A stretch of 24,515 nucleotides of DNA. It comes from a virus. Below are positions 1,729 through 10,495 of this stretch, one piece after another. The stretch covers positions 1 through 24,515 of IMG/VR virus record IMGVR_UViG_3300044591_001371. One strand, 5' to 3'. The first letter of the stretch is position 1. Each line of letters starts with the position of its first letter. The position numbers and the translations under genes were made by a program. The notes under the pieces were generated by a model. That model did no database searches. It had not been told where the DNA came from and saw only the letters and a list, made by a program, of their open reading frames with translations.

Positions 1729-3584
1729 TGAACCTTGTTGACCAGACCATCGCCCTGTTTAGCCCCCGCGCGGCCCTGCGCCGGGAGGTTGCGCGGCAGA
1801 AGCTAACCGCTTTCTCGCGCTTCGACGCGGCCAAGATTACCCGCGCGCGTCCGCAGGCCCGTCAGAATATGCCTGCCGAGCAGATCGGGGGAACGACTGA
1901 GCGCATCCGGTTAATGAACCGCGCCCGTGACTTGGACGATAATTTCTCAACGGTAAGGGCGATCTTGACCCACTTCGTCATTCACACGGCAGGGACGCTT
2001 TCCTACCAAGCTCGCACAGGCGACACGGCTCTCGACCAAGACGTTGAGGCGTATCTAAATCAGTGGTTCGCCAACTGCGACTTGACCGGACGCCATTCGC
2101 TCCTTTGCCTTACGCAACTGGTCTTTCGCGCCGTGCTGGTCGATGGCGATTGCGGCGTGATCCTTGTCCGCGACGGGGATGACCTCAAACTTCAGACCGT
2201 AACCGCTGACCGAATCGGACGCGACATTGACCTCGACTTGAACGACACCGCTTACATTGGCGGCATCTTGATCGACCCGCGCGGGCGTCCGCTGAAATAC
2301 CGAGTGTATGAGCGCGACCGCTCAGGGCGTTATCTGAACTTTGAGGAAATCGACGCGGAGAACTTCTGCCACATCGCCAACTTCACCCGCCCCGACGAAT
2401 ACCGGGGCCGCTCGGTTCTCGCGCCGATGTTGGATGACGCGCAGGACGTAGCCGACTTGATCGAATACGAAAAGCTCGCTGCGCGGTGGGCCTCCTCACA
2501 GGCGGGCGTGGTCAAGACCGAGTATGGCGCGGACGAGGAACTTGCTTCCGTGCTGCGCGGGGAGAAAGACCAATTCGGAAACGAGATCAAGCTGACGGCG
2601 CTGGAGCCGGGGCGCATTAACTATCTGAACACGGGCGAGTCGATGGAGATGTTCAAGAGCGGCGACCGCCCTGCCGCCGCTTTCGCCAACTTCGTGCAAT
2701 ACTTGGAGAACCGGATGTGCCGCGCCCTTGGTGCCTCCGCTCGCGTTATCCTCGACCGCACCAGCGCAGGCCCGGAAGCGCGCAAAGACCTTCGCCAAGC
2801 CGAGCGCACGTTTGATTTCTGGCGCTATCAGTTGGAGGCGCAGTTCTTGAACAAGGTGGTTCGCCTCGCCTTGATGGATGCCGCCGCCAAGCGACTCCTG
2901 CCTAACCGCCCCGAAGTCACACTCGGTCAATGGCAATGGCCGGGATCGGTTAGCATCGACGCGGGGCGTGATGCCCGCGCCGACATCGAATTGTGGCGCA
3001 TGGGTCTGGCGACCGCCGCCGAACTCTACGGCGAGGCGGGACACGATTGGCAGGCCAGCATGAGACAGCGCGCTAAAGAGGCGGCATATATCCGTGAGCT
3101 TGCGGAAGAAATGGACGTAAGCCCTGCCGAGATTAGCGGAGGCAAAGAGTCTATCGCTACCGATCCCAACCGCGCCCCGGTGACCGCCCCCGTGCCGTCC
3201 GCACCGGAGCAGGAGCTATCGCAGTTTGCGATCCCCAAAAAATACGCGCACATTAACTTCAAGCCAACCGCTGCCCTTGCGGTCGAGGCTAAACGCGGCC
3301 TTGAGTGGCGCGAGGAATACGGACGCGGAGGAACGGAAGTCGGAGTCGCCCGCGCGCGGGACTTGATGAACCGCGCCAATCTTTCACCGGACACGGTTCG
3401 CCGCATGAACAGCTATTTTGCCCGTCACGAAGTCGATAAGCAGGGCGAAGGATTTAAGCCGGGGCAGGACGGTTATCCGTCCGCTGGCCGCATCGCGTGG
3501 GCCTTGTGGGGCGGCGATGCGGGCGCGTCATGGGCTGCGGCCCGCGCGGCACAGATGGATGCCGTCGATGACGATGAAGGCTAA
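1728..3584 (+). CDS. B: Portal protein, lambda gpB family, with extra C-terminal domain
   Basis: The predicted protein is 618 aa. The portal is the dodecameric ring at the head vertex through which DNA is packaged and ejected. Residues about 40-460 follow the lambda-type portal pattern: an N-terminal arm with RIRLMNRARDLDDN, a wing with YLNQWFANCDLTGRHSL, GILIDPRGRPLKYRVYERD, then RPDEYRGRSVLAPMLDDAQD and EKLAARWASSQAGVVKTEYG. After a proline-rich linker (about 465-495) comes a separate domain of about 115 residues (497-612) with NFKPT, RGGTEVGVARARDLMNR, LSPDTVRRMNSYFARHEVDK and GYPSAGRIAWALWGGDAG. I know this domain as a conserved stretch in other phage proteins but cannot name it securely. 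The ATG overlaps the upstream stop, so translation is probably coupled. Confidence 0.88.
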   Translation: MNLVDQTIALFSPRAALRREVARQKLTAFSRFDAAKITRARPQARQNMPAEQIGGTTERIRLMNRARDLDDNFSTVRAILTHFVIHTAGTLSYQARTGDTALDQDVEAYLNQWFANCDLTGRHSLLCLTQLVFRAVLVDGDCGVILVRDGDDLKLQTVTADRIGRDIDLDLNDTAYIGGILIDPRGRPLKYRVYERDRSGRYLNFEEIDAENFCHIANFTRPDEYRGRSVLAPMLDDAQDVADLIEYEKLAARWASSQAGVVKTEYGADEELASVLRGEKDQFGNEIKLTALEPGRINYLNTGESMEMFKSGDRPAAAFANFVQYLENRMCRALGASARVILDRTSAGPEARKDLRQAERTFDFWRYQLEAQFLNKVVRLALMDAAAKRLLPNRPEVTLGQWQWPGSVSIDAGRDARADIELWRMGLATAAELYGEAGHDWQASMRQRAKEAAYIRELAEEMDVSPAEISGGKESIATDPNRAPVTAPVPSAPEQELSQFAIPKKYAHINFKPTAALAVEAKRGLEWREEYGRGGTEVGVARARDLMNRANLSPDTVRRMNSYFARHEVDKQGEGFKPGQDGYPSAGRIAWALWGGDAGASWAAARAAQMDAVDDDEG

Positions 3585-3678: not shown

Positions 3679-4617
3679 ATGACCAAGACCGACTTCGCTG
3701 TTCTGCAAGGACAGATCGACGCGCAGGCTGCGACCATTTCTGACGTTAGCGTTATTACGGTTGGCGAAGCCAAAGGCCACGGCTTGATGATTGACGAGCA
3801 GACGCTGGTCGAAGTGAAGGCCGCTGCCGAGACTTACGCGGGTGGGTTGAAGGTGAAGACGGATCACTACACCGGATTCAACGAAATCGTTGGAACACTG
3901 AAGAACTTCCGCATCGACGGCGATCAGCTACGCGCCGATTTGTTCCTGCTCAAGAATCACGATGCCACGGCTCGCATCTTGGAAATGGCCGAGCTTATGC
4001 CCGACACCTTTGGTCTTTCGATCTCGTTCACGGGCGAACACGAAGAGAGCGACAACGATATTGTCTTTGCCCGGTGCACGGAGATTTACAGCGCCGATTT
4101 GGTTGATGCTCCCGCCGCGAATCCCACGGGGCTGTTTAGCGTTAAGGTTGACAGCGAGAAAAAGGCTATGGACGAAAAGCAATTTGCCGAAGCCCTCGCC
4201 GCCGCCCTCGCGCCGATCAATGAGAAGTTGAGCGCGTTTGAGGCTTTTGTCACGGAAGCCAACACCAAGTTTGAAGCTCTCGCCTATAAAAAGGACGAGG
4301 AGAAGATGGCCGAAGTCACCATCGAAACTCCCGAATCCGAAGAGGAGAAAGAGGAGTCCGAAGACATGAGCGCCAAGCTCGCCGCCGAACTCGCGGAGAT
4401 CAAATCGCTCGTCACCAATTTCGGCGCAAAGCCCGTGGCCGTTGCGGTTCCCGTCGAGGCCAAGACCGAAGAGGTCAAAGAGCCGACCAACTTCTCCGAA
4501 GCCCTTGAAGTCGTGAAGGCCGAAGGTCTTTCCGGTTCCGCCGCCACGAAGGCTGTCATCGCCCGCTACCCTGAACTTTTCCTCGCTGCCCGTAACAGCG
4601 GCATCCGCACTCTCTAA
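3679..4617 (+). CDS. Prohead maturation protease fused to scaffold
   Basis: The predicted protein is 312 aa. Residues 1 to about 155 look like an assemblin-like phage prohead protease: His63 in KTDHYTG, the strand pair GTLKNFRIDGDQLRADLFLL, and Ser114 or Ser116 in DTFGLSISFTGEHE are candidate catalytic residues. Residues 164-312 are acidic, helical and lysine/glutamate-rich (EESEEEKEESED-like stretch near 215-230), as in scaffolds removed during maturation. Lambda encodes C and Nu3 in the same nested way, with Nu3 made from an internal start. Here Met164 (ATG 4168) is preceded by its own TTGACAG element, pointing to the same design. The gene lies between portal and decoration protein, as expected. 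The exact peptidase family is unsure. Confidence 0.72.
   Translation: MTKTDFAVLQGQIDAQAATISDVSVITVGEAKGHGLMIDEQTLVEVKAAAETYAGGLKVKTDHYTGFNEIVGTLKNFRIDGDQLRADLFLLKNHDATARILEMAELMPDTFGLSISFTGEHEESDNDIVFARCTEIYSADLVDAPAANPTGLFSVKVDSEKKAMDEKQFAEALAAALAPINEKLSAFEAFVTEANTKFEALAYKKDEEKMAEVTIETPESEEEKEESEDMSAKLAAELAEIKSLVTNFGAKPVAVAVPVEAKTEEVKEPTNFSEALEVVKAEGLSGSAATKAVIARYPELFLAARNSGIRTL
4148..4154 (+). promoter_or_regulatory. TTGACAG element inside the protease gene
   Basis: This is the only TTGACA I found inside a gene. It ends 13 bases before the in-frame ATG 4168 (Met164 of the protease-scaffold), exactly where the scaffold part begins. The spacer holds GAGAAAAAGG, which could also act as a weak SD. 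Confidence 0.55.
4168..4617 (+). CDS. Scaffold protein from internal start (Nu3-like)
   Basis: This is a nested reading of the protease gene from ATG 4168, giving 149 residues. The product starts MDEKQFAEALAAALAPINEK, a likely coiled coil up to about residue 50, followed by a highly acidic linker and a C-terminal helical region ending in RYPELFLAARNSGIRTL, where scaffolds commonly bind the capsid protein. Separate scaffold synthesis would supply many copies per protease copy, as with lambda Nu3 in gene C. Support is the correctly placed TTGACAG element, a purine-rich stretch before the ATG and the domain boundary. Initiation here is inferred. Confidence 0.5.
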   Translation: MDEKQFAEALAAALAPINEKLSAFEAFVTEANTKFEALAYKKDEEKMAEVTIETPESEEEKEESEDMSAKLAAELAEIKSLVTNFGAKPVAVAVPVEAKTEEVKEPTNFSEALEVVKAEGLSGSAATKAVIARYPELFLAARNSGIRTL

Positions 4618-4630: not shown

Positions 4631-4984
4631 ATGGCATCCCAAGTTGATTCAACTAACCGCTCCTTCGTCGCCAACGCGGCGATCAGCGCCTTCCGCCTCG
4701 TTCGTCTTCACACGACCGAAAACGAAGTTGTCGCCGCCACCAACGGTGCGGCTATCGGGTTCACCCAAGATGACGCTTCGGCGGCTCAAGTGGTGGGCGT
4801 AAAACTTTTTAACCCGACCTATCTGGCGACCGTTTCGGGCGCTGGCGTTGCGGCTGGCTCGGCGGTTCATGCGGTTGCCGCTGGCACCGTGGCCTCGGCT
4901 GGCGGCGTGACTGTCGGCTTTGCCATCAATGCTGGCACGACCAACGACATCATCGAGGTCGCGGTTCCCGTCAAGAGTTTCTAA
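4631..4984 (+). CDS. Capsid decoration protein (DUF2190 / gpD-like)
   Basis: The predicted protein is 117 aa. It is small, rich in A, G, V and T, and strand-rich. The order is a flexible N-terminus, SAFRLVRLHTTENEVVAATN, GAAIGFTQDDASAAQVVGVKLF, two short glycine/alanine strands and a final TNDIIEVAVPV. This matches the DUF2190-type head decoration proteins that occupy the same place as lambda D, trimers that clamp the expanded capsid. It lies between scaffold and major capsid protein as in lambda C-D-E. There is no SD: the leader is the stop cassette plus CTCCT. High expression is expected but not shown. Confidence 0.7.
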   Translation: MASQVDSTNRSFVANAAISAFRLVRLHTTENEVVAATNGAAIGFTQDDASAAQVVGVKLFNPTYLATVSGAGVAAGSAVHAVAAGTVASAGGVTVGFAINAGTTNDIIEVAVPVKSF

Positions 4985-5003: not shown

Positions 5004-5966
5004 ATGGCTTACACTAACTCCAACGCTCTGCCCCGCGCGGAAATCTCGCAAGCGGTTTTTGAGGCGCAGTCTAATTCCGCCTCCCTCCCGTTCATCGGCC
5101 TTGATGTGCTTCCGGTCTATTCGGTTGCTGCTCGCTCCGGTGAATACCTCAAGATCGAACTCGGCGGCGGCGAAGCCTACAACGTCGATGCGCTCAAGAC
5201 CGATCCCGGTGCGGCTCGCTCGCGCGTCACCCGCCGCTTCACCAGCGACACCTACGCCACGACCAGCTACGAACTCGAAGAGCTTCTGCCCGACGAGACT
5301 GCCGCTGACCTTGGCCGCTACTTCGACGTTGAAGTTTCCAGCGCAGCGTTTCTCAACAACAGCTTGCTCATCTCGCATGAGCAGCGCGTTGCCGACCTCG
5401 TTTTCGGTTCCAGCATCAGCGCGATCAGCGCCAATGCCGCTTACACCGCTGGCAGCATCGACACCCTCGATATTGCCAAAGACGTTGACGATGCGATGAC
5501 GGAACTCGCCAAGAAGAACGTGATTGCCGACACGGTGATCCTTTCTCTCCCGGTGTTCAACCGCATCCGCCGCACGACCAAGTTGCTCAACAACCTTTTC
5601 GGCCCGGTGAAAAACTCGGCGCAGGTTCGCCCTGCTTCCGCCGAGGAAGTTGCCGCCGCCCTCAACGTGTCTCGCGTCCTCATCGGTCGCGCTGCCCGTA
5701 ACGGCGCGAAGAAAGGTCAGAGCTATTCTGGTTCCTTCATCTGGGGCAACTCCAAGGTTGTCGTCGCCAAGCTCGGCGCTGGTGAGTTCACCGCTGGCGG
5801 ATTGGGCCGCACCCTCCTCTGGAGCGAAGACAGTCCGACCCCGCTGGTCACGGAAACTTACCGCGACGAAGCCCGCCGCAGCAACGTCATCCGCGCTCGC
5901 CATAACACGGCTGAGAAGCTGATCGACACTTCCTGCGCCATCGGCATCGACACCAGCTACGCCTAA
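5004..5966 (+). CDS. E: Major capsid protein, lambda gpE-like HK97 fold
   Basis: The predicted protein is 320 aa, close to lambda gpE (341 aa). An N-terminal arm (about 1-50) contains PFIGLDVLPVYSVAARSGEYLKI. The ordered region has the E-loop-like VDALKTDPGAARSRVTRRFTSDTYATTSYELEELLPDE, a long spine-like helix region around 100-135, DVDDAMTELAKKNVIADTVILSLPVFNRI and a C-terminal part with GSFIWGNSKVVVAKLGAGE and YRDEARRSNVIRARH. This is the usual layout of the lambda E capsid family. The start follows a TAACAACTAAC leader without SD, resembling the leader of the decoration gene. A strong terminator follows 26 bases after the stop. Confidence 0.85.
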   Translation: MAYTNSNALPRAEISQAVFEAQSNSASLPFIGLDVLPVYSVAARSGEYLKIELGGGEAYNVDALKTDPGAARSRVTRRFTSDTYATTSYELEELLPDETAADLGRYFDVEVSSAAFLNNSLLISHEQRVADLVFGSSISAISANAAYTAGSIDTLDIAKDVDDAMTELAKKNVIADTVILSLPVFNRIRRTTKLLNNLFGPVKNSAQVRPASAEEVAAALNVSRVLIGRAARNGAKKGQSYSGSFIWGNSKVVVAKLGAGEFTAGGLGRTLLWSEDSPTPLVTETYRDEARRSNVIRARHNTAEKLIDTSCAIGIDTSYA

Positions 5967-5992: not shown

Positions 5993-6017
5993 CCCCGCCC
6001 GAAAGGGCGGGGTTTTT
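5993..6017 (+). terminator. Rho-independent terminator after major capsid gene
   Basis: A perfect 8-bp stem, CCCCGCCC (5993-6000) with GGGCGGGG (6005-6012), is closed by a GAAA tetraloop and followed directly by TTTTT. It separates the head module from the glycosylation island. Confidence 0.92.
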
Positions 6018-6024
6018 CGTTTGA

Positions 6025-6031
6025 TTGACAG
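6025..6031 (+). promoter_or_regulatory. TTGACAG start-associated element, copy 3
   Basis: TTGACAG ends 15 bases before ATG 6047, three bases farther than in most copies. It follows the terminator by 7 bases, so whatever starts the island must act here or read through. Confidence 0.6.
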
Positions 6032-6046
6032 TCTGCCACGGGGCAG

Positions 6047-7735
6047 ATGCAAATTCAGTCGAAGGTCGCCGTGTGCCTTATATGCGGCAACGAGGAGGGG
6101 ATCATAGGACGGGCGCTGGATAGCGCCTTCACCGTCAGCGACACGGTTATTGTCGTTCGCGCTATCGGGGGCCAGACGCCCGACAAATCGCTTCAGATTG
6201 CCCGTGAGCGCGGTTGCATTGTCGGGGAATACCACAACAGCCCCGCCACCGCATCGTGGCCTTTCGTGGACGATTTCGCCGCCGCCCGTAATGAAGCCTT
6301 CCGGTTGGCCGCAGTAACGCCCGCCGAGTGGTTCATGTGGATGGATTGCGACGATACCCTGCCCGAAGGGATGGGCGAGACGATCAAGCAAGCCTGCACC
6401 GATACCAAAGAGGATTGGATTCTGGCCGAGTATGAGTTGCCGCAGCATTGCAAGTCCGTCCTCCGCGAGCGCCTGTTCCGCCGAGGCACGGCGGCATGGT
6501 TCAACGGGGTTCACGAAAAGTGCATCCCGGTCACGGAGGACAAAGACAAAGACACCCTGCAAGTGCGCGTCCGTAAGGATATCCGCATTGTTCACCAACC
6601 GCTCGACGCCAAGACCGGATCACAGGAACGCAACCTTAACATCCTGCTCTGGCGTTACCAAGAAACGCAGCACATCGCCTTTTATCTGCACTACGAGTTC
6701 TTCCTGCTCGGCAAGCGCGAAGAGGCGGTCAAATACGGACTGCAAGCCCTGCGCCTCGACAACCTCGATGGCGTCTATCGCTACGAAGTCTTGCTGAACC
6801 TCGCCATGATGGCCGAGAAAAACGAACACGGGCAGGATTTGCTGCAACGCGCGATCAAGCTCTGCGGCTCCCGGCGCGAGGCATATCACTTGCTCGCCCT
6901 CTTGCAAATGGACGCGGGGCAGACTGCCGAAGCGGTCAAGACTGCCGAGCATTGTCTAACCATCAAGGAGCCGAAGATTTACGAATGGACGCACCGCCCG
7001 GAAATTTACGGCTGGAAGGGTTTTGCCACAATGGCATGGGCGCACCGCGCCAATAGCGACGAGGACAAGGCTGCGGAGATCGAAGAGAAGATGCTGGAAG
7101 ACGGCGGCAAGCCCCGCATTTCCCTATTGCACGCCACCCGTGGCCGCTGGTCGCAAGCAATACAGACAATGAATCTGTGGGTTTCCCGCGCCACAAACCC
7201 GATGGCCGTGGAGCATATCTTCGCCATAGACGAGGACGATAAAGAGACGGACGAAAAGCTGGCGCGGTTCCGGGCTGTAATCTCCGACAGGGGTTACTCG
7301 GTCGGCGCATGGAACGCCGCCGCCGATTCCGCTTCTGGCGATGTGCTGATCCAGATTGCCGATGACTTTGAGCCTCCGGTCGGTTGGGATCGTCTCATTG
7401 TGGAGGCGTTAGGCAGGGACATCTTCGCGCCCAAGGTGCTGCGCGTTTCGGACGGCAATCGCACGGACGGGCTAATCACTTGCGCCATCGTTACGCGCGA
7501 ATGGCATCACAAGCACGGACTGTTCCACGGGGAATATCGCAACGTCTATTCCGACAACGATCTAACCGCAACCGCGACCAAGGCCGGGGCAATCATCGAA
7601 GCCCCGCAAATCGTCATCCGCCACCATCATCCGTTCTTTAACGACAAGGTGAAGATGGACGCGACCTACGAGCGCGGCAACGACCCTGCCGAATACGAAA
7701 GGGCGAAGGCAATCTTTCAAGCCCGCCACCCATGA
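6047..7735 (+). CDS. Two-domain glycosyltransferase (GT2 - helical repeat - GT2-like)
   Basis: The predicted protein is 562 aa, cytoplasmic, with no signal peptide or membrane segment. The N-terminal GT-A domain (about 5-190) begins KVAVCLICGNEEGIIGRAL, with RNEAF at 81-85 and a DxD-type metal/nucleotide-sugar site WMDCDD at 98-103, as in GT2 enzymes. Residues about 195-350 are helical pairs resembling TPR repeats (EEAVKYGLQALRLDN and GQTAEAVKTAEHCL). A second GT2-like domain (about 355-545) starts ISLLHATRGRW and has SVGAWNAAADSASGDVLIQIADDFEPP, where ADDF would replace DxD. The protein could transfer two sugars or use one domain for binding. It is first of four overlapping genes. Substrate and acceptor cannot be read from the sequence. 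Confidence 0.82.
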   Translation: MQIQSKVAVCLICGNEEGIIGRALDSAFTVSDTVIVVRAIGGQTPDKSLQIARERGCIVGEYHNSPATASWPFVDDFAAARNEAFRLAAVTPAEWFMWMDCDDTLPEGMGETIKQACTDTKEDWILAEYELPQHCKSVLRERLFRRGTAAWFNGVHEKCIPVTEDKDKDTLQVRVRKDIRIVHQPLDAKTGSQERNLNILLWRYQETQHIAFYLHYEFFLLGKREEAVKYGLQALRLDNLDGVYRYEVLLNLAMMAEKNEHGQDLLQRAIKLCGSRREAYHLLALLQMDAGQTAEAVKTAEHCLTIKEPKIYEWTHRPEIYGWKGFATMAWAHRANSDEDKAAEIEEKMLEDGGKPRISLLHATRGRWSQAIQTMNLWVSRATNPMAVEHIFAIDEDDKETDEKLARFRAVISDRGYSVGAWNAAADSASGDVLIQIADDFEPPVGWDRLIVEALGRDIFAPKVLRVSDGNRTDGLITCAIVTREWHHKHGLFHGEYRNVYSDNDLTATATKAGAIIEAPQIVIRHHHPFFNDKVKMDATYERGNDPAEYERAKAIFQARHP

Positions 7736-8331
7736 GCTATTCGCAAAACAGCGAAGAAGCGGTCTTGCTTGACTACTTTGGCGACAAGTCAGACGGCACT
7801 TTTTTAGAAATCGGCGCGTTCCATCCGACCCGCCTGTCCAACACTCGCGCGCTGATTGAGCGCGGCTGGTCTGGCGTCATGGTCGAAATGTCGCCTTACG
7901 CGCTGGTCGATCTGGTCGAAGCCTACAAGGACATCCCGCGCGTCCGCATTGTCGCCGGGGCCGTGACGATTAACGCGCAGCCACCCGCATCAGTATGGCT
8001 TATGCCCAAAGATGCGGAGAATGACGGGGCGATTAGCACGACCGAGGCATGGCACCGCGACAAATGGGCGGGGCGCGTGAGCGGCAAGCATATTGCCATG
8101 ACCGCCGCGACGATCAGCATGACCGAACTGATGTGGATGCTGCCGCCGCAGATCGACCTTGTAAGCATCGACACCGAGGGAACCAGCGTGCAACTGGCAA
8201 GCGCCTTCGACTTTGATCGCTTTGGCGTCAAGGCCGTAGTGCTGGAGCATGACGGAGCGGAAAAGATTGCCATGCCCACCTCCTTCCGGGTCGCCGCGAT
8301 GAACGCCGAAAACGTGATTTTCCTACGATGA
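7732..8331 (+). CDS. FkbM-family SAM-dependent methyltransferase
   Basis: The predicted protein is 199 aa. The opening YSQNSEEAVLLDYFGDKSDG, FLEIGAFHPTRLSNTRALIERGWSG and VEMSPYA match the FkbM O-methyltransferase family, with motif I at residues 24-32. DLVSIDTEG at 142-150 is the usual acidic motif after the central strand, and the C-terminus is short. FkbM enzymes add methyl groups to hydroxyls, often on sugars of surface glycans or natural products. ATG overlaps the stop of the glycosyltransferase (ATGA), implying co-translation and work on the same glycan. No N-terminal glycosyltransferase is fused. The family call is good; the acceptor is unknown. Confidence 0.85.
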   Translation: MSYSQNSEEAVLLDYFGDKSDGTFLEIGAFHPTRLSNTRALIERGWSGVMVEMSPYALVDLVEAYKDIPRVRIVAGAVTINAQPPASVWLMPKDAENDGAISTTEAWHRDKWAGRVSGKHIAMTAATISMTELMWMLPPQIDLVSIDTEGTSVQLASAFDFDRFGVKAVVLEHDGAEKIAMPTSFRVAAMNAENVIFLR

Positions 8332-8903
8332 AACGCGCACCGACACCCGAACTGTCCGTCCTTATCCCGACCATCACCGAGCGGGAGCAGGAAGCTAATG
8401 CCTTATTCCGGTCGTTGGAGGCTCGCGTAAAAGGTCGCAACGTCGAGATCCTAATGATGCGGGAAAACCTCCTGTGCGGCATCGGAGAGGCCCGCAATAA
8501 GCTCCTACGCGCAGCAGGGGGGAAATACATCACCTTCCTCGATGACGATGATGCGCTTTGCGAAGGCTACTTTGAACTCGTCCTCGCTAACATCCCGCAC
8601 GACAAGGACGTTATTACCTTCGACCAGTGGGCCAGCGTCGATGGCGAGACGGGACGCATCAACTGCCGCCTCGGTCATGAGGTGGAGCCATTCCGCCCCG
8701 GAGCAGTAACCAAGCGCCCGCCGTGGTTCTGGTGCGTCTGGCGCCGGGAGTTGGCTTGTGCCTACGCCGTGCCGCAAGTGAGGCGCAACGAGGATGTGCT
8801 ATGGCTGCGCCACCTGTGGGCCGAAGCCGAGACGGAAGCGCATATTCCGCAAATCCTGCACCGCTACAATTTCAGCAGTGACAAGACCACTCTGCAAAAA
8901 TGA
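8328..8903 (+). CDS. GT2-family glycosyltransferase, short form
   Basis: The predicted protein is 191 aa. It follows the GT-A pattern: LSVLIPTITER at the start, GIGEARNKLLRAAGGKYITFLDDDD with the metal-binding acidic cluster at residues 71-75, then WFWCVWRREL and RRNEDVLWLRHL, with Glu154-Asp155 placed like the catalytic ED of inverting GT2 enzymes. It is shorter than typical GT2 proteins (about 250-330 aa) and lacks any membrane tail, so it is a minimal catalytic domain. The start overlaps the FkbM stop as ATGA, and the stop overlaps the next ATG. The specificity is unknown. Confidence 0.8.
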   Translation: MKRAPTPELSVLIPTITEREQEANALFRSLEARVKGRNVEILMMRENLLCGIGEARNKLLRAAGGKYITFLDDDDALCEGYFELVLANIPHDKDVITFDQWASVDGETGRINCRLGHEVEPFRPGAVTKRPPWFWCVWRRELACAYAVPQVRRNEDVLWLRHLWAEAETEAHIPQILHRYNFSSDKTTLQK

Positions 8904-9496
8904 CTTACGATGACTATGCCCTTGGGCCAATCGGCGCTGCAGACCGCGAGGTGCTTGTTGCTGTTGCCAAATATTACAACCAGCCTTCGGTTTTGGAATA
9001 CGGCAGCGCCGATGGGCACAGCGCGCAAGCGTGGGTTGATGGCGGTGCCGAAATTGTGCATTGCGTCGATCTTTGCCTTTGCAGCGGCATGGCGAGCGTA
9101 GCAGGCAACAACGATGATCGCGTTACGTTTTTTGGTACAGATCAAGTCGGATTCCAGCCGCCTCGCAGTTACGACATTATTTTCATCGACGCATCGCATC
9201 ACTTGGCGACAAACATCGCCACGCTCAATATTGCACAGGCCGCTTTGTTGCCGGGGGGGTGCGTCATTGTTCACGACACCGCCAAATGGCCCGCGCAAGC
9301 TATGCAGGAAGCGCACCGAGCCTTTGGCGGAATAACCGATTCAGATGGCGGCAAGTGGCACCAACCCGACGAGGCTGCCTTTGTGCAGTGGATGCAGGAG
9401 CGGGGCTGGCAGTGCGTCACGCTGTCCAGTCGCACGGCTTTACGCCACGGTCTGACCCTATGCCAGCCCCGCCCGCTCGTAGAGCGCGGCAAATGA
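8900..9496 (+). CDS. Class I methyltransferase (Methyltransf_24-like)
   Basis: The predicted protein is 198 aa. VLEYGSADGHSAQAW at 31-45 is the SAM-binding motif I. VHCVDLCL follows as strand 2, YDIIFIDASHHLATNIATLNIAQAALLPGGCVIVHDT at 91-127 is the central motif with the DASH metal-site-like segment, as in the Methyltransf_24 / catechol-O-methyltransferase-like group often found in sugar-modification clusters. A second methyltransferase next to an FkbM one suggests methylation at two positions or on two sugars. The 3' end overlaps the convergent Fringe-like gene by 39 bp. The fold call is good; substrate and product are inferred only from neighbours. Confidence 0.75.
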   Translation: MTYDDYALGPIGAADREVLVAVAKYYNQPSVLEYGSADGHSAQAWVDGGAEIVHCVDLCLCSGMASVAGNNDDRVTFFGTDQVGFQPPRSYDIIFIDASHHLATNIATLNIAQAALLPGGCVIVHDTAKWPAQAMQEAHRAFGGITDSDGGKWHQPDEAAFVQWMQERGWQCVTLSSRTALRHGLTLCQPRPLVERGK

Positions 9497-10123
9497 GGCG
9501 CGATCCTTTACGTGAACGCTGATGGCGGCGTGAAAATCAATAGATTCAAAAGGACGGTCTGGGCCGTGCATATCATGAATAAAGGCCCAATCAACAGGCG
9601 CTTCGATAGCGTTTTGATCCCGGACCCACATAGCAAGGGAAACATCTGAATGGGCTGGGTGAATAGGCCGTGCAACGGGTGATGCTTTAAGCACTTGAAA
9701 AGCGGCAGCGTTAATTAAAATACCCGCCCCGCCGTGAGCATGAGCAATATCCGGCCCGTCTGGAACGCGAGCGTCACAAACCAAGCCCGCAATAAGAGGC
9801 CTATCACCGGGCAAGCCGTCAAGGAGGGCCGCAAGATTGGGCAAATGCAGCCAAGTATCGTCATCCGCAATGATAAACCAATCGGCCTCCGTTCCGTTAT
9901 TGCGTTCAAAAATTGAATAGAGCTTGTCGTGGCAGCTTTGATAATCGTCTCGGTCGGTCACTTGTTCTACTGGAACATGGTCAAAAGCCGCAAAGCCGCC
10001 CAAAAGAGATACCGTGTTTTCTCTATAATCGCGAGCAATCATGGCACAAGTGGTTTCCCAAAGCGGAATAGTCCGGGCCTCATGCAATGCGCGACAAACC
10101 ACGAAATTAAAAGACGCACGCAC
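9458..10123 (-). CDS. Fringe-like (GT31-type) glycosyltransferase
   Basis: The predicted protein is 221 aa and is the only real minus-strand gene in the window. DWFIIADDDTWLHLPNLAALL at 81-101 contains the DDD metal site (87-89). AHGGAGILINAAAFQVL from 129 carries the GGAG signature, and HSDVSLAMWVRD at 158-169 replaces the DDV-x-LG motif. These occur in this order in Fringe and core-1 galactosyltransferases (Pfam Fringe), beta-1,3 enzymes best known from eukaryotes. The usual N-terminal membrane anchor is missing, so the protein should be cytoplasmic. The start is GTG 10123, with TTGACG 20 bases before it. It converges on the methyltransferase gene and diverges from the connector gene at 10172. 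Confidence 0.75.
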   Translation of the reverse strand: MRASFNFVVCRALHEARTIPLWETTCAMIARDYRENTVSLLGGFAAFDHVPVEQVTDRDDYQSCHDKLYSIFERNNGTEADWFIIADDDTWLHLPNLAALLDGLPGDRPLIAGLVCDARVPDGPDIAHAHGGAGILINAAAFQVLKASPVARPIHPAHSDVSLAMWVRDQNAIEAPVDWAFIHDMHGPDRPFESIDFHAAISVHVKDRASFAALYERAGLA

Positions 10124-10137
10124 CTACCGATAAGAAG

Positions 10138-10143
10138 CGTCAA
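10138..10143 (-). promoter_or_regulatory. Variant TTGACG element on the minus strand
   Basis: Read on the minus strand, TTGACG begins 20 bases before the GTG start of the Fringe-like gene, within the 19-22 range of the + strand copies. TTGACG also occurs inside genes, so alone it is weak. Confidence 0.4.
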
Positions 10144-10152
10144 ATCTGCCTC

Positions 10153-10159
10153 TTGACAG
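10153..10159 (+). promoter_or_regulatory. TTGACAG start-associated element, copy 4
   Basis: TTGACAG ends 12 bases before ATG 10172; the spacer AAGGCGAATAGC-like stretch has at most a weak SD. Confidence 0.6.
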
Positions 10160-10171
10160 AAGGCGAATAGC

Positions 10172-10495
10172 ATGGCCCTCGACACGGCGCGGCTCGCTAC
10201 CGAACTCGACAGCATCATTGCCGACCTCCCGGCAACGGTGACTTTCGGCACATCGACCTTCTTGGCGGCAGTCACGCAAGGCACAGTCGGCAGCGACATT
10301 GCCGAAGGCGGCTTCCTGCCCTCCCGCGACATCGGCCTGCACGTGAAGTCCACAACAGACACGCGCGCGGTCAAGGTCGGGAGCAAGCTAACAGTCCTGT
10401 CGGCGGGCGTCACCAAGACCTACCGCGTCATCAGCATCGAGCGCTCCCAAGACGGGCAGGAGCTAATCTTTAGCTGCCAAAGCCCGCACCGCTAA
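10172..10495 (+). CDS. Putative head-tail connector / head completion protein
   Basis: The predicted protein is 107 aa. A helical N-terminus (LDTARLATELDSIIADLP) is followed by strands: VTFGTSTFLAAVTQ, a loop with SDIAEGGFLPSRDIGLHV, DTRAVKVGSKLTVLSAGVTKTYRVISIERSQDGQELIFSC. An opening helix, then a beta barrel with PRxG-like KVGSKLTV and a final YRVISI strand, recalls small head closure proteins such as lambda FII-type connectors. Position supports it: after the head genes and island, before the tail terminator and tube. The start has a TTGACAG element. The next ATG follows the stop by 2 bases. Function is assigned from size, pattern and order. Confidence 0.5.
   Translation: MALDTARLATELDSIIADLPATVTFGTSTFLAAVTQGTVGSDIAEGGFLPSRDIGLHVKSTTDTRAVKVGSKLTVLSAGVTKTYRVISIERSQDGQELIFSCQSPHR

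Follow-up and report, generated by a model that had tools for sequence, protein, structure and literature searches.

A probable virion glycosylation operon linked to the major capsid gene in a large group of uncultured phages

Introduction

The capsid and tail tube of mycobacteriophages are reported to be glycosylated by phage-encoded glycosyltransferases (GTs), and virion proteins of Che8, Corndog and Myrna are reported as glycosylated with reference to Freeman 2023 (PMC12363180, PMC11600133, PMC12619734). In the cluster J phages LittleE, Omega and Thibault, several GT and methyltransferase genes lie between the genes of the major capsid protein (MCP) and the head-tail connector (PMC3706429). 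Here we describe a block of five genes at positions 6047-10123 of a 24.5 kb virus record (IMG/VR record IMGVR_UViG_3300044591_001371, 24,515 nucleotides; this whole stretch is called the window, and its positions are used for numbering), in which GTs and methyltransferases lie amid virion structural genes, as in loci of the mycobacteriophage type. Judged by sequence comparison and structure prediction, the block is probably a virion glycosylation operon. Its first gene, GTa, is linked to the MCP gene, and this MCP-linked GTa is a core trait of a large uncultured phage group.

SunS and ThuS, to which part of GTa is related, are enzymes that glycosylate peptides. GmaR glycosylates flagellin and is bifunctional, being also an antirepressor (PMC9638930), and in FlmG, another GT with tetratricopeptide repeats (TPR), flagellin is bound by the TPR part (PMC7591256). 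The search for nearest homologues that an earlier note on this DNA had proposed led from GTa to SunS, ThuS and GmaR, and from the second GT of the block, GTb, to virion-glycosylation loci of mycobacteriophages.

Results

Linkage of GTa and GTb to the capsid gene

In the window, the MCP gene (5004-5966, plus strand; phrog_1005, 7.6e-25), whose product is a candidate glycan acceptor, is followed on the same strand by GTa (6047-7735), a GT2-TPR-GT2 protein matching PF00535 in two stretches (1.4e-8), and further on by the GT2 enzyme GTb (8328-8903, plus strand; PF00535, 2.9e-10; phrog_8858, 2e-21). The MCP had 34 relatives in viral_contigs with 80-100% identity; two others reached 75%. Each of the 32 same-capsid relatives with downstream room had GTa directly 3′ of MCP, and GTa and GTb were both present in each of the 23 contigs with a complete interval from MCP to the next gene. 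The relatives, compared down to an MCP identity of 75%, showed no empty site, either for the whole block or for the GTa-GTb core. The earlier note had taken the five genes for an inserted island that breaks the lambda order from E to FII, and had suggested comparison with relatives lacking it. This comparison yielded no relative without the core and empty versions only of accessory slots; the idea of an insertion thus failed for GTa-GTb and held only for these slots. The label FII for the next late gene (10172-10495) is positional only, as the gene had no match in domain or phrog family searches.

The linkage was also seen beyond the same-capsid relatives. The GTb profile reached contigs L150 and L153, in which the MCP is of a different family (phrog_283/267) and gave no match to the window MCP in a profile comparison. 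The order in these contigs was that of the window, i.e. MCP, hairpin, TTGACA, GTa (30% identity), GTb (58%) and a 305-residue GT (62%). A GTa profile search of viral_contigs gave at least 523 relatives, of which 80 were fetched. Each of the 80 loci had an MCP gene ahead of GTa in the same orientation, in nearly every case as its immediate neighbour and with a median gap of 104 nt, and a GTb-type gene followed GTa in 41 of the 63 distant loci with room. Because these loci had been chosen via GTa, MCP was taken as an independent bait, with a narrower profile, the profile over all distant MCPs being too divergent for scanning. GTa was found directly behind the MCP gene in 55/55 loci picked in this way (MCP of a family other than that of the window, at least 2 kb of room); the 80-locus and 55-locus samples overlap and contain near-identical contigs. 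The linkage spanned two MCP families, MCP pairs down to 25% identity and GTa pairs with a median of 39%. In the distant podovirus ctKR88, the MCP gene was followed by one gene and then by a GTa-like GT.

No close relative of GTa was found in named phages; the GTa of contig L205 gave only partial matches (26-45%), in uncultured records. Scans of genome_contigs with GTa and portal profiles revealed no prophage, and matches of the terminase large subunit (TerL) and portal pointed only to distant, mixed hosts.

Domains and fold of GTa

GTa consists of a GT2 domain (residues ~1-195), a TPR region (~200-350) and a second GT-A domain (~356-562). The acidic residues D100, D102 and D103 of the first and D439 and D440 of the second domain were invariant in 52-74 sequences, the N-terminal domain combining a predicted GT-A fold of GT2 type with conserved acidic metal-site residues. 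Against PDB sequences, the GTa profile matched the GT domain of GmaR (6.7e-19), SunS (8e-18) and ThuS (1.2e-13), the next GT2 enzyme following at 6.6e-5. A structure model built from 52 sequences (predicted local distance difference test, pLDDT, 92.3; predicted template modelling score, pTM, 0.87) showed GT-A, TPR and second GT-A domains in this order. The best fold matches of its N-terminal half were SunS (Z 18.2, 266 residues, 3.2 Å) and ThuS (Z 17.5, 270 residues, 3.1 Å), and the TPR region directly follows the GT domain, positioned as in SunS. An earlier model (pLDDT 63), in which SunS and WrtF were tied, was superseded by the 52-sequence model. The SunS equivalog TIGR04195 (cut-off 350 bits) was not matched by the window GTa and reached 19.1 bits with the GTa of L150. 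By sequence and model, the N-terminal half of GTa is homologous to SunS, ThuS and GmaR, yet GTa is not a SunS equivalog. The available evidence points to a mode of action resembling that of these enzymes and of FlmG, which makes GTa a putative, and probable, initiator of protein glycosylation.

Relatives of GTb

The best relatives of GTb in named phages were GTs of mycobacteriophages and Gordonia phages. GTb showed about 30% identity with LittleE gp15, which occupies the same gene position, and 28% identity with the GT part of Che8 gp108, where a GTb-like GT is fused to a Methyltransf_24 domain. GTa showed no similarity to LittleE gp17, and no TPR initiator was found among the glycosylation genes of Che8 and Corndog. 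These comparisons suggest that GTb, a core gene in the clade of the window, is probably an extension enzyme.

Accessory slots

All five open reading frames described in the earlier note were confirmed in the sequence, as were the three ATGA overlaps between the plus-strand genes (at 7732, 8328 and 8900). The enzyme families given there for the two GT2 proteins and for the Methyltransf_24-type protein were upheld, while the other two assignments proved to be borderline. The gene between GTa and GTb (slot 1; 7732-8331, plus strand) matched PF05050 at 1.1e-3 and 19.5 bits, below the gathering cut-off of 22.7, and is therefore labelled only as an FkbM-like methyltransferase. The second methyltransferase gene (8900-9496, plus strand) is of the Methyltransf_24/23 type (PF13578, 5e-6; PF13489, 3.7e-6); the only PADLOC match, a weak one of 18.7 bits to a Mad2 model, was taken as a generic methyltransferase match. 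The fifth gene (9458-10123, minus strand) overlaps the fourth tail to tail and encodes a Fringe-like putative GT, just above the cut-off (PF02434, 1.6e-4, 21.5 bits; cut-off 21.0).

These last two genes occupy slot 3 (8900-10152), a cassette site limited by the GTb codons for ...TLQK and by a TTGACAG motif (10153-10159, plus strand), which is also the start-associated motif of the 10172 gene. In relatives, slot 1 contained the FkbM-like gene, another Methyltransf_24 gene (PF13578, 2.2e-21) or nothing. Slot 3 was either vacant or occupied by a plus-strand Fringe-like gene, by a 305-residue Glyco_trans_1_2-like gene or by the methyltransferase with the minus-strand Fringe-like gene. The last cassette was present only in the window and in contig L003, which carries the window arrangement with 100% identity. 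Slot 3 was empty in, for example, L007, L013, L021 and L026, where it reads ...CTTCAGAAGCCATTGACAG..., and other relatives carried other cassettes with the same ends. The edges were exact, with ATGA junctions at the 5′ sides and TTGACAG at the 3′ side of slot 3. Nine slot combinations were seen, including eight of the nine cells of a three-by-three grid; the grid combination of methyltransferase and Fringe was not seen among the relatives compared.

Plus-strand Fringe homologues (L002, L004, L017, L018 and L020) showed about 50% identity to the window gene, that of L002 scoring 27.1 bits with PF02434. The GC content at third codon positions was 0.47 in the window Fringe gene against about 0.73 in its neighbours, indicating that it probably arrived recently, in inverted orientation. 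An invertible switch around this gene was considered and rejected, since there were no long flanking inverted repeats and the best pairs were short or internal.

Terminator and start-associated motif

The strong terminator that the earlier note had placed ahead of the block is present at 5993-6017 (plus strand), reading CCCCGCCC-GAAA-GGGCGGGG-TTTTT, and recurs in relatives. This hairpin was found in 22/22 sequences compared, and a strong hairpin also separated the MCP and GTa genes in 60/60 distant loci where the gap between them is short. This terminator between MCP and GTa probably acts as a transcriptional step-down.

All seven TTGACA copies of the window lie on the plus strand (positions noted: 1464, 3660, 6025, 10153, 11002 and 17781), six of them 19-22 nt upstream of a start codon. 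TTGACAG-N(11-14)-ATG occurred five times in the window (0.23 expected). The motif precedes the adaptor, protease, GTa (6025-6031, plus strand; conserved in relatives), 10172 and 11021 genes, and the pattern of motif and start codon was retained in ten relatives and also in the distant L150. By its sequence context TTGACAG is a start-associated signal, its spacing from ATG being too short for an ordinary -35 box. A further copy was observed within the protease gene (4148-4170), just 5′ of an in-frame ATG at 4168, and was conserved in relatives. By analogy with lambda Nu3 in gene C, this ATG is possibly a nested scaffold start.

Selection and covariation

The ratio of nonsynonymous to synonymous substitution rates (dN/dS) of GTa and GTb was 0.04-0.15, similar to that of capsid genes, which corresponds to purifying selection; together with the recurrence of the window arrangement in L003, this confirms that the genes are real. 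In the wide family (31 loci), covariation with MCP was highest for the GTa TPR region (r 0.92), followed by the first GT domain (0.88) and the second (0.67), with bootstrap support. This pattern fits, without proving, a capsid-reading TPR region and first GT domain and a sugar-reading second GT domain.

Flanking head genes

The head operon of the window is lambda-like and comprises a head-tail adaptor (phrog_118), a portal (phrog_21), a protease, a decoration candidate and MCP. The gene at 4631-4984 (plus strand) encodes a probable capsid decoration or cement protein (phrog_673, 2.1e-9; weak PF09956), which is an alternative candidate for the glycan acceptor. At the C-terminus of the portal (3230-3560), the last 100 residues had matches of 45-47% in phage contigs L106-L110 that did not extend to the remainder of the protein, and several relatives showed an insertion of about 250 nt just 5′ of this domain. 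Sequence comparison suggests that the portal C-terminal domain is possibly a mobile module.

Discussion

The anatomy of the locus, its homologies, the linkage to MCP, the slot structure and the selection on the core genes were established directly. The proposal of the earlier note that the block glycosylates capsid or tail, with methyl caps, became the best-supported reading through the lock to MCP and the homologies of GTa and GTb. Since GTa occupies the same spot behind MCP in every relative examined, the genes very probably serve a sugar coat of the phage's own particle and are not a stray gene cluster.

In the following scheme, the identity of acceptor and sugar, the sequence of reactions and the benefit gained are inferred. 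The late transcript would pass the terminator behind MCP at a reduced level, and this reduced read-through is proposed to give little enzyme per capsid protein. The TPR region of GTa would dock a protein of the virion, with the capsid protein as the likeliest candidate and the decoration protein as the alternative, and its first GT domain would add a sugar to the docked protein in the cytoplasm. The second GTa domain and GTb would lengthen the glycan, and the FkbM, methyltransferase and Fringe-type enzymes would cap it with methyl groups or a final sugar. By exchanging these caps, each phage may acquire its own surface glycan. It is quite possible, and we propose it tentatively, that capsid glycosylation by a TPR-GT is obligatory for head formation in this large uncultured group, exchangeable caps at two fixed slots producing combinatorial surface glycans.

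Several points weigh against this glycosylation scheme. The system is known here from its genes, and the capsid and decoration proteins are candidate acceptors. Owing to their overlap and near-identical contigs, the two distant samples do not represent 135 independent events. Within the clade of the window, GTa distances follow the protease and the decoration protein no less closely than MCP, and in distance-matrix tests the difference between decoration protein and MCP as partner of GTa was not significant; in the wide family, the preference of the TPR region for MCP over portal was likewise not significant. GTb and cap genes were not found in many distant GTa loci. The C-terminal half of GTa, with the second GT-A domain, was matched about equally by many GT-A enzymes. 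Finally, the substrate of SunS is a small peptide, so that its acceptor chemistry cannot be transferred to GTa.

Host-surface modification, in which the enzymes would change an envelope glycan such as lipopolysaccharide in infected cells or lysogens and thereby block superinfection or release particles, has precedents in Gtr conversion clusters and prophage TarP. Some members may be temperate, as integrase-like genes occur in some relatives (e.g. at 53-1111 of L115, contig G002; phrog_1, 6.7e-27). In gtr clusters, likewise, accessory genes vary around a conserved core, and TarP and RmlT, soluble GT2 enzymes of wall teichoic acid, were among the lower-ranked fold matches of GTa. The block, however, encodes no membrane protein (maximum 19-residue hydropathy 1.73), and GtrB would match PF00535, for which no match outside the block was found in ten contigs of 32-43 kb. 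The nearest solved relatives of GTa act on polypeptides, and there is no evident reason for a conversion gene to stay directly behind MCP in every locus examined. The earlier note had set this explanation beside virion glycosylation; weakened by the lack of a membrane protein in the block and of another GT2 gene in these ten contigs and by the MCP linkage, it now appears unlikely.

The acceptor could also lie outside the capsid, in a tail protein (the tail tube) or among the minor proteins of the virion. Two papers report a glycosylated tail tube besides the capsid in mycobacteriophages (PMC12619734, PMC11600133), and GTb-like genes occur among the tail genes of Gordonia phage Forza. GTa, however, keeps to MCP and not to tail genes, and such an acceptor is unlikely.

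That the GTs glycosylate a hypermodified base of phage DNA is very improbable. Phage GTs are able to act on DNA (Pyle 2024, as cited in PMC12619734), and contig G006 (L119, 8063-9656) has a gene resembling queuine tRNA-ribosyltransferase (phrog_6059, 1e-39) and a neighbour weakly resembling a glucosyl-hydroxymethylcytosine glucosyltransferase (phrog_842), a pair that hints at modified DNA in some members. Nevertheless, neither gene is in the block, and G006 was the only contig in which they were seen, no search for base hydroxymethylases over all contigs having been made; the block is late and MCP-linked, with a GTa related to protein GTs. Equally remote is a regulatory or scaffolding role of GTa via its TPR region with vestigial GT activity: GmaR is bifunctional, with its antirepressor role (PMC9638930), and GTa is retained even in loci that yielded neither GTb nor caps, but the catalytic acidic residues of both its GT domains are invariant.

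Glycosylation of the virion, most likely of the capsid, remains the favoured explanation. To our knowledge, virion glycosylation has been demonstrated only for a small number of mycobacteriophages, whose enzymes give the impression of optional extras. In contrast, the putative initiator described here keeps its fixed place beside the capsid gene in all loci examined, in an environmental group of at least 523 loci, while the finishing enzymes are exchanged at exact junctions. This arrangement makes it testable whether the assembly or the stability of heads depends on a sugar, what selects for diverse caps where no animal host is involved, and whether GT2-TPR enzymes serve generally to glycosylate proteins that assemble by themselves, such as flagellin and capsid.

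Among the known systems, SunS and ThuS share with GTa a GT2 domain followed by TPR and are related to it in sequence and fold, whereas GTa has an additional C-terminal GT domain and stands in a phage head operon. GmaR of Listeria and FlmG of Caulobacter are, like the predicted GTa, cytoplasmic GTs with TPR whose substrate is a self-assembling surface protein. FlmG differs in having a GT-B domain, and in GmaR an antirepressor domain takes the place of the second GT of GTa. Among mycobacteriophages, for which virion glycans are reported while the window system is known here from its genes, the Che8 fusion of GT and Methyltransf_24 in gp108 mirrors the adjacent GTb and methyltransferase genes of the window. 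The glycosylation genes of Che8, however, lie at the right genome end and not behind MCP, and its gp110, the GT that capsid glycosylation reportedly requires (PMC12363180, PMC11600133, PMC4351075, with reference to Freeman 2023), is of the GT25 type. Cluster J phages are alike in gene position, but there the GT and methyltransferase genes are described as an interruption, whereas here the place of GTa next to MCP is fixed, and the hosts are unrelated. What is new relative to the virion glycosylation of mycobacteriophages is a near-universal, MCP-locked putative initiator combined with combinatorial caps, in a phage group without a close match among named phages.

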